Positions 4-6,222 of a stretch of DNA of 6,417 nucleotides are shown here, piece after piece (the stretch's first letter is position 1; the number at the start of each line of letters is the position of its first letter). Source of the stretch: Pseudomonadales bacterium (GTDB taxonomy: Bacteria; Pseudomonadota; Gammaproteobacteria; Pseudomonadales; Litorivicinaceae); the NCBI GenBank assembly GCA_012269655.1, contig JAAXJV010000059.1, forward strand, positions 1 through 6,417, given 5' to 3'. A program made the translations under genes and the position numbers. The notes below the pieces were generated by a model that ran no database searches, was not told the DNA's origin, and was given only the letters and a program-made list of their open reading frames with translations.

Positions 4-1086
4 TTATCCGGCTAGCGATTTAAATAATTTGTCATAGTCTGCCTTGATCACGGTGTCCGTGTTAAGCAGTTCTTTTACTTTTCGACAGGCATGAAGAACG
101 GTCGTATGGTCTCGCCCACCAAAGGCCTCACCAATTTCAGGCAAACTATGACTGGTTAGCTCTTTCGCCAATGCCATCGCAATCTGACGTGGCCGCGCGA
201 TAGACCGATTTCTGCGAGCGGATAACAGATCACTGACCTTTAACTTAAAGAAATCCGCTACCACTCGTTGAATGTTGTCCAGACTCACCTGACGATCATG
301 CAGCGCAATCATGTCTTTTAACGTTTCTGCAATGAATTCAATCGTGATCGGCTGATTCAAGAATTTTGAATTAGCAATCACACGTTTTAACGCACCTTCT
401 AGGTCTCGGACGTTGCCTCGGACCTTCTGCGCAATAAAAAATGCACTGTCCCGTTCTAGCTCACAGCCGGCTTCACTGGCTTTATTGATCAAAATAGCCA
501 CGCGGGTCTCAAGCTCTGGAGATTCCAATCGAACGGTTAAGCCCCAACCAAACCGGCTCTTCAGTCGATCTTCCATCCGGTCGATTTCTTTGGGATAACG
601 ATCCGACGTCAGGATGATCTGCTGCCCCCCTTCAAGCAAGGTGTTGAAGGTGTGGAAGAACTCTTCTTGGCTTTTGTCTTTGCCAGCAAAAAATTGAATG
701 TCATCGATCAGCAACGCGTCTACGTTACGATAGACCCGTTTGAAGTCATTGATTGCGTTCAATTGCAGTGCTTTGACCATGTCGGCTACAAAGCGCTCGG
801 AGTGCACGTAAATAATTTTCGCATCCGGGTTTCTGGTCTGAATCTGATTGCCTACCGCATGCATCAAGTGTGTTTTGCCTAACCCCGTATCGCCATATAG
901 AAACAGTGGGTTGTATTCTGCGCCCGGATTCTCGGCCACCCTTTGAGCCGCTGCCCGGGCCAATTGGTTACTTTTCCCTTCGACAAAATTATCAAAGGTG
1001 TGATTGGGGTTGAGCCGACTGGTGTGTTTAACCGACCCTTCGACCTGAACGCGGCTGCCTTTACTTTGGCCCGCACTGGGATCCAC
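4..1086 (-). CDS. dnaA: DnaA replication initiator, C-terminal part (domains III-IV) after an in-frame stop
   Basis: This segment encodes the AAA+ ATPase and DNA-binding portion of DnaA, which binds DnaA boxes and melts the origin. In the 360-residue product, Walker A is GDTGLGKTH (about 65-73), Walker B is LLIDD (125-129), sensor 1 is ILTSD (158-162), the arginine-finger region is RLKSRFGWG (174-182) and the sensor 2 region is NVRDLEGAL (225-233). The domain IV signatures are RSIARPRQ (294-301) and [11 protein letters not shown] (323-333). The stop TAA is at 4-6. The frame is the same as that of the domain I segment upstream, separated by TAG at 1093-1095 and two codons. GTG at 1084-1086 is the first possible restart, six bases after the TAG, but no Shine-Dalgarno sequence precedes it. 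The second Walker A residue is Asp where gammaproteobacterial DnaA usually has Gly; this still fits GxxxxGK[ST]. The family call is certain; whether the segment is translated separately is unknown. Confidence 0.95.
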
Positions 1087-1092
1087 CGATCG

Positions 1093-1095
1093 CTA
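1093..1095 (-). other. In-frame amber (TAG) codon interrupting dnaA
   Basis: On the plus strand the bases are CTA, read as TAG on the minus strand, preceded by CAA and followed by CGA TCG GTG. Both flanking segments are in the same frame, so this is a nonsense codon and not a frameshift. A CAG (Gln) codon differs by one base and would suit the linker. It lies in domain II, the least conserved part of DnaA. Confidence 0.9.
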
Positions 1096-1383
1096 TTGTA
1101 AGGCTGATACAGTGGTGGCCGGCTTCTGAGTGTCATCAGTAGGGCTTGTGGCTCTCGCAACACTGCCGACTTCTAAGATGACACGCATATCGCCCTGGTC
1201 GTTTACCAGCTCTTTAATACGCGCGAGGTAGCGATCCGTGACCCAATCTTTCACAAACCTATTAGGGGCCAATATCTTTACCCGATCCGAGCTAGGTTCT
1301 ACCTGAAGTGGGCGAATCCAAGTATTAAATTGATCAGAGGGCAGCTCTTGTTCCAAAGATTTTAAGCAAGTGTTCCAAACCAC
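1093..1383 (-). CDS. dnaA: DnaA N-terminal part (domain I and start of the domain II linker), ending at TAG
   Basis: This 96-residue segment matches DnaA domain I, which in E. coli mediates self-association and contacts DnaB helicase and DiaA. Visible signatures are VWNTCLKSLEQELP at the start, F-x-x-WIRPLQ (about 19-27) and APNRFVKDWVTDRYL. The tail, rich in Ala, Thr, Ser and Pro, is a typical variable domain II linker, and the stop falls inside it. I chose GTG at 1381-1383 because the product then begins where DnaA proteins normally begin, and AAGG lies 8 bases upstream. The frame is open further upstream to TTG at 1465-1467, but the extra 28 residues do not resemble DnaA and are probably leader. 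Adding both parts, the TAG and two codons gives about 459 codons, close to the 467 residues of E. coli DnaA. Nothing is missing except the sense codon at the TAG. Confidence 0.85.
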   Translation of the reverse strand: MVWNTCLKSLEQELPSDQFNTWIRPLQVEPSSDRVKILAPNRFVKDWVTDRYLARIKELVNDQGDMRVILEVGSVARATSPTDDTQKPATTVSALQ

Positions 1384-5488: not shown

Positions 5489-5800
5489 TCACCGAGCTTT
5501 ACGACCTACCTTTACCCGTGTGTATTGGGTTTTACAGTAACCTCTTTGCACATCTGGACTGCGAAGCGCCCTGTGCTTTGTTTTACGACCAGACACTCGA
5601 GCCCGCCATAACCTAAACGATGACGGTTTCAATTCCGCTCTCATCAACTGAATGACTGCGGCTTCGGATAATCCATAATCCTCTTCAATCGCTTCAAAGG
5701 GCGTTCTGTCTTCCCAAGCCATTTCGATGATCCGAGATCGATCTGTTTCAGATAAAAACTTATTCACAAGGTTTTCATTACCCCTAACTCGAGTATTCAC
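5489..5800 (-). CDS. DUF2805 / TIGR03643 family small basic protein
   Basis: The protein has no known function. The core FLSETDRSRIIEMAWEDRTP, then FEAIEEDYGLSEAAVIQLM, ELKPSSFRLWRARVSGRKTKHR is what I recall of the DUF2805 (TIGR03643) family, found in many marine and other proteobacteria and in Bacteroidetes. Residues about 33-57 look like a helix-turn-helix and the second half is rich in Arg and Lys, so nucleic-acid binding is plausible (inference). The 23 residues after GRKTKHRALR appear to be a basic C-terminal extension. The start is uncertain: GTG at 5798-5800 has no ribosome binding site, while GTG at 5765-5767 has AGGGG about 13 bases upstream and would leave 92 residues. A perfect DnaA box overlaps the second GTG. 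The stop TGA is four bases from the mnmE stop, tail to tail, with no terminator between. It flanks the origin-like region, as mioC does in E. coli, but is read away from it. Confidence 0.8.
   Translation of the reverse strand: MNTRVRGNENLVNKFLSETDRSRIIEMAWEDRTPFEAIEEDYGLSEAAVIQLMRAELKPSSFRLWRARVSGRKTKHRALRSPDVQRGYCKTQYTRVKVGRKAR
5760..5768 (+). promoter_or_regulatory. DnaA box TTATTCACA inside the 5' end of the DUF2805 gene
   Basis: Perfect consensus. The reverse strand supplies codons GTG-AAT-AA of the small gene, including its alternative start. The 13-mer AAAC plus box equals that at 1466-1478. Confidence 0.75.
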
Positions 5801-5868
5801 GGGCTAATCAAAGCCGTTTACAAAACTGTCCACTGCCTGGCTGACTGAGTTATTGCTCGAGTTAAGCC

Positions 5869-5877
5869 TGTGGGTAA
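5869..5877 (-). promoter_or_regulatory. Degenerate DnaA box TTACCCACA
   Basis: The plus strand reads TGTGGGTAA, one mismatch to consensus. It lies in the gene-free region between the DUF2805 gene and mnmG. Confidence 0.45.
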
Positions 5878-5939
5878 TGTATTGAGCTCACGACAGAACA
5901 ACACAAGGGGTAAGTCTGTGGATGCTTTTGCGAATAAAG

Positions 5940-5948
5940 TTATCCACC
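5940..5948 (+). promoter_or_regulatory. Degenerate DnaA box TTATCCACC
   Basis: One mismatch at the last base. It is preceded by AAG, as are the TTATCCACA boxes at 1565 and 1620, and is the box nearest the A+T-rich stretch. Confidence 0.5.
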
Positions 5949-5975
5949 AAGCATCTACATCTCATGTGCCGGTTT

Positions 5976-5995
5976 AACACGGGCAACCCCGTGTT
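5976..5995 (+). repeat. Perfect hairpin in the origin-like region
   Basis: The arms AACACGGG (5976-5983) and CCCGTGTT (5988-5995) are perfect complements around the loop CAAC. No T tract follows on either strand, so it is not an obvious terminator. It lies between the DnaA boxes and the A+T-rich stretch and is a G+C-rich island there. It could be a protein-binding palindrome or a structural element (inference). Confidence 0.7.
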
Positions 5996-6222
5996 CTATT
6001 CTAGAAAAAAGTGGCCCTAAGCATCTGTTTTTGCGTATAAAAAAATAGTTATCACCAGCACACTAGCAGATTAATAATCAACAATATTTATACGTATATA
6101 TATTCTTTCTATTTATTTCTTAACGCGCTCTTACGACGCAGCTGAGCATAAACAGACAATTTCTTAACCGATTCCACGAGCTGAGGTAAACTGTCCACAA
6201 CTTCATTTCTTGGATATCTGAC

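Follow-up and report, generated by a model that had tools for sequence, protein, structure and literature searches.

The window, which is the whole stretch of DNA that was analysed, is one complete contig (C239) of 6,417 bases. Its plus strand carries rpmH, rnpA, yidD, yidC, and mnmE, and its minus strand carries dnaA at positions 4-1383, adjoining rpmH. The dnaA gene lies in one frame from a likely GTG start at 1381-1383, placed by alignment with an intact relative (protein record P0001), to a terminal stop at 4-6. As sequenced, it is not one uninterrupted reading frame, because codon 97 of its 459 codons is an in-frame TAG at 1093-1095 of the minus strand. The 5′ part of the gene (1096-1383, minus strand) spans 96 codons and encodes domain I and part of domain II. 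The TAG falls within domain II, the variable linker, and the 3′ part (4-1092, minus strand) encodes the rest of domain II, the AAA+ domain III, and the DNA-binding domain IV, ending with the stop at 4-6.

The description of this locus in the initial annotation, a stop that splits DnaA and leaves its signatures intact on both sides, is borne out by profile matches in one frame. The upstream half matches PF11638 (DnaA_N) with 76.9 bits (profile run on 1093-1467). The downstream half (run on 4-1086) matches PF00308 (Bac_DnaA) with 250.4 bits, PF08299 (Bac_DnaA_C) with 107.7 bits, and TIGR00362 with 538.2 bits, and domains I, III (AAA+), and IV (DNA-binding) are thus all present across the two halves. 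The combined length, described as normal, is indeed so, since 459 with the TAG counted is the length of P0001. The lost codon had been guessed to be a glutamine (CAG), a guess that does not fit P0001, which has another residue there in a poorly conserved linker. In its domain order, its length with the TAG counted, and its position next to rpmH, the gene resembles other members of the DnaA family (TIGR00362; PF11638, PF00308, and PF08299); it differs from them in the one in-frame stop in the linker.

Codon changes relative to a dnaA from the same genus number 27, 14, and 44 at the first, second, and third positions in the N-terminal half (69 codons) and 49, 21, and 190 in the C-terminal half (346 codons). 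The excess of third-position changes in both conserved halves suggests that the gene has likely long been kept as a working gene. The linker, with 12, 13, and 16 changes over 29 aligned codons, has no third-position bias.

dnaA in related bacteria

The relatives compared were 56 other genomes, of which 2 belong to the same genus, 22 to the same family, and 32 to the same order. A whole-length dnaA frame of 459-610 amino acids is found in 47 of the 56, a call that rests on frame length, with 18 of the 47 inspected. Five more have a partial dnaA (G023, G007, G002, G021, and G035), the first two being cut by a contig end. A true dnaA is absent from the results in the other four: G012 and G019 gave no match, and G026 and G054 gave weak matches that are probably to a DnaA paralogue. 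No internal stop is listed in the dnaA match of any of the 52 genomes with a whole-length or partial gene. Seven weak second matches with internal stops, at 23%-32% identity, were left uncounted; they are not dnaA and probably represent a DnaA paralogue. Close relatives had been proposed as a check on the TAG, and the 47 whole-length frames show that the split is not common to them.

Among the matches listed, the nearest protein relatives with organism names are Litorivicinus and its family, and the nearest DnaA is P0001, an intact protein of 459 amino acids with 98% identity over the C-terminal half. The P0001 protein is found on contigs of up to 2.14 Mb. The two dnaA halves of the window are not themselves among the matches listed, so the protein database may not hold this contig. 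A scan of genome contigs, which may leave out records near the window's own genome, kept 80 loci, and the best segment reached at most 74% identity, so there is no same-species DNA among these 80. The nearest relative of YidC stands at 94% identity, and no same-species record was seen there either.

Could the two halves be a natural pair? In such an arrangement, the TAG would close domain I, and termination followed by reinitiation would give domains III-IV, with domain I perhaps acting in trans. A possible restart codon, a GTG at 1084-1086 (minus strand), lies six bases past the TAG, and both halves are otherwise intact. The stop also falls in domain II, which in E. coli DnaA tolerates the insertion of GFP, according to PMC5448010. 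The same paper reports that when E. coli DnaA lacks a working domain I, DNA is unwound and DnaB cannot be loaded, which counts against a natural split. The initial annotation saw no Shine-Dalgarno sequence before the GTG, and a simple motif test agrees, with no such motif at GTG 1086 or at TTG 963 and GTG 939, the two in-frame starts that follow it.

A search for domain I as a protein of its own, at a similar length, gave 284 matches. The best 120 of these are all at or below 63% identity, with the top match at 59%, so no near-identical N-terminal half and no second example of the TAG allele is seen among them. A literature search for phrases describing a natural split dnaA gave no report. With relatives whole, no near-identical N-terminal half, and no Shine-Dalgarno sequence, a natural split with restart at the GTG finds no support and is regarded as very improbable. 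A real split would be a test of whether the helicase-loading domain needs a covalent link to the origin-binding part of DnaA.

Three of the 120 listed DnaA records, all of them protein records only, lack the DnaA_N domain. Two DnaA records of related bacteria, P0024 (357 amino acids) and P0067 (354 amino acids), start within the linker, so that domain I is missing; the likely reason is a contig end or the choice of start codon.

Decoding of TAG and the search for a second dnaA

A whole DnaA could be made if a suppressor tRNA or leaky decoding allowed the TAG to be read through, and the sequence on either side of the stop is indeed open and well kept. The usage of stops in the assembly (GCA_012269655.1; 1.63 Mb in 310 contigs, 78.09% complete, 3.75% contamination) points the other way. 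In a 60-contig sample, 304 open segments of at least 200 codons end in TAG (56), TAA (119), TGA (110), or contig run-off (19). TAG is therefore an ordinary stop, not a reassigned codon, as the initial annotation had held. The two other stops found within genes of this assembly, described below, are TAA rather than TAG. None of the 24 tRNA genes found has a CUA anticodon, in a set that is incomplete and includes no tRNA for Ala, Ile, Met, Phe, Thr, Trp, or Tyr; a suppressor could be among the missing genes. Readthrough and suppression thus find no support and are rated as extremely improbable.

The search of the genome for a second dnaA and for a CUA tRNA revealed neither. For dnaA this holds for the assembly as it stands, which lacks roughly one fifth of the genome.

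Other in-frame stops and the origin of the TAG

The quality of the assembly was examined by comparing 100 of its 310 contigs (584,398 bases) with 736 open reading frames (ORFs) from 800 kb of one family member. This gave 107 conserved alignments, covering 32,787 residues at a median identity of 51%. A stop lies within the gene in 3 of the 107, namely dnaA (TAG), nusA (TAA), and a gene on contig C216 that we take to be dsbA-like (TAA). Before filtering there were six stops in five genes; two in q110 and one in q612 were dropped, since the likely gene start comes after them. Outside these six, four stops in q713, a likely antisense ORF, were dropped as well. An apparent frameshift at about 4085-4098 of contig C224, in what is presumably an S-adenosylhomocysteinase-like gene, was traced to a stretch of 10 N.

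The control consisted of 397 gene pairs (194,174 residues, 23 genes) from the 80 named loci kept by the scan of genome contigs. Five stops were seen, each ahead of the likely gene start at the N-terminal edge of its alignment, and none of the 397 pairs has an internal stop. Because these loci had themselves been retrieved by way of dnaA, they are not a fully independent control for that gene. A scan of codon usage for in-frame stops flanked by coding sequence, run on 60 contigs, flagged 8 and 22 places. By eye, most looked like ordinary junctions between genes, where a start codon directly follows the stop, and a few looked like antisense frames. Because of these junction-like places, and because the scan missed dnaA, it was replaced by the homology comparison.

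In nusA the stop is a TAA near one end of contig C217, at bases 54-56. In both same-genus relatives the nusA frame is 508 amino acids, and it is at least 495 amino acids in 21 of 23 other genomes, these two relatives included, being shorter in G012 (219) and G013 (290). The dsbA-like TAA lies 158 bases before the end of C216. This locus is present twice in the assembly, at C216:7997-8437 and at C58:1-441; the two versions agree at 415 of 441 bases (94%), and C58 carries a sense codon where C216 has the TAA. Two versions at 94% point to a bin in which strains are likely mixed or some bases wrong, and the two versions likely come from two strains. A further pair of contigs overlaps over 123 bases at 93.5% identity, and three pairs have exactly 55 bases in common at their ends. 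The TAG in dnaA is covered by one contig only, no second contig over the gene being found in the assembly.

Close relatives keep dnaA whole, and the conserved nusA and dsbA-like genes of the same draft are likewise interrupted, the latter in disagreement with C58. For these reasons the TAG at 1093-1095 appears to be a wrong base or a fault of assembly in a draft that is fragmented and seems to mix strains, with a probability of roughly three in four judged from sequence comparison. The TAG would then have arisen like the other stops, by consensus error or as a strain chimera; dnaA would be unbroken in the living cells, which would make a normal DnaA of 459 residues. Some observations count against an error. 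Whereas the nusA and dsbA-like stops sit near the ends of their contigs, 1,093 bases separate the dnaA stop from the closer end of its own, and the causes may therefore differ. The six other whole genes of the window are uninterrupted, each scoring above its NCBIfam cut-off. A test of the C-terminal half of DnaA for odd residues at conserved sites gave no clear excess (6, compared to 5 in P0001 and 1-5 in nine others), and the contig is not visibly error-rich.

These same observations, the clean neighboring genes and the stop away from the contig end, are also what a real and very recent nonsense mutation would leave, in which one codon breaks an otherwise well-kept gene. It would be carried by some cells only, and the assembly would have captured an allele that is likely a dead end or slows growth. 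The free-living gammaproteobacteria studied so far need DnaA to live, so an allele of this kind would not be expected as the consensus. The assembly's other in-frame stops, one of them at odds with a second contig, also argue against it, and a nonsense allele is considered unlikely. The simplest explanation in the initial annotation, a sequencing error or a very recent mutation, is the one favored by the evidence.

Both kinds of break have known counterparts. Spurious stops caused by assembly or sequencing errors have been sought by means of protein-length ratios, as described in PMC6785717. The case of dnaA is similar in having a single break, a gene that is whole in relatives, and more breaks in the same assembly; it is dissimilar in that the errors described there are indels in long-read assemblies, whereas the window has an in-frame stop codon without an indel. 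Among genuine losses, dnaA has disappeared from some insect endosymbionts, and Blochmannia obliquus, like the genome studied here, is a gammaproteobacterium with a broken dnaA, there a pseudogene (PMC4389277). B. obliquus, however, is an obligate ant endosymbiont with 15 pseudogenes found in its intergenic regions, whereas both halves of the window's dnaA are well kept and the gene is kept in relatives.

With an error as the preferred reading, the biology is most likely ordinary unless reads prove the TAG. The case also calls for caution: when a lone in-frame stop turns up in an essential gene of a fragmented draft, recoding or a split gene should be claimed only after a comparison with the bin's other genes and with any contigs that overlap.

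Further features of the window

A small protein of the uncharacterised family TIGR03643 is encoded at 5489-5800 of the minus strand, between mnmE and mnmG. Sites resembling DnaA boxes occur in two clusters. The first, at 1470-1646 between dnaA and rpmH, has two perfect copies of TTATCCACA and two near matches. The second, at 5760-5948, has three near matches beside an AT-rich stretch (5900-6199; 35%-38% GC) that precedes mnmG. Either cluster could be a candidate replication origin.
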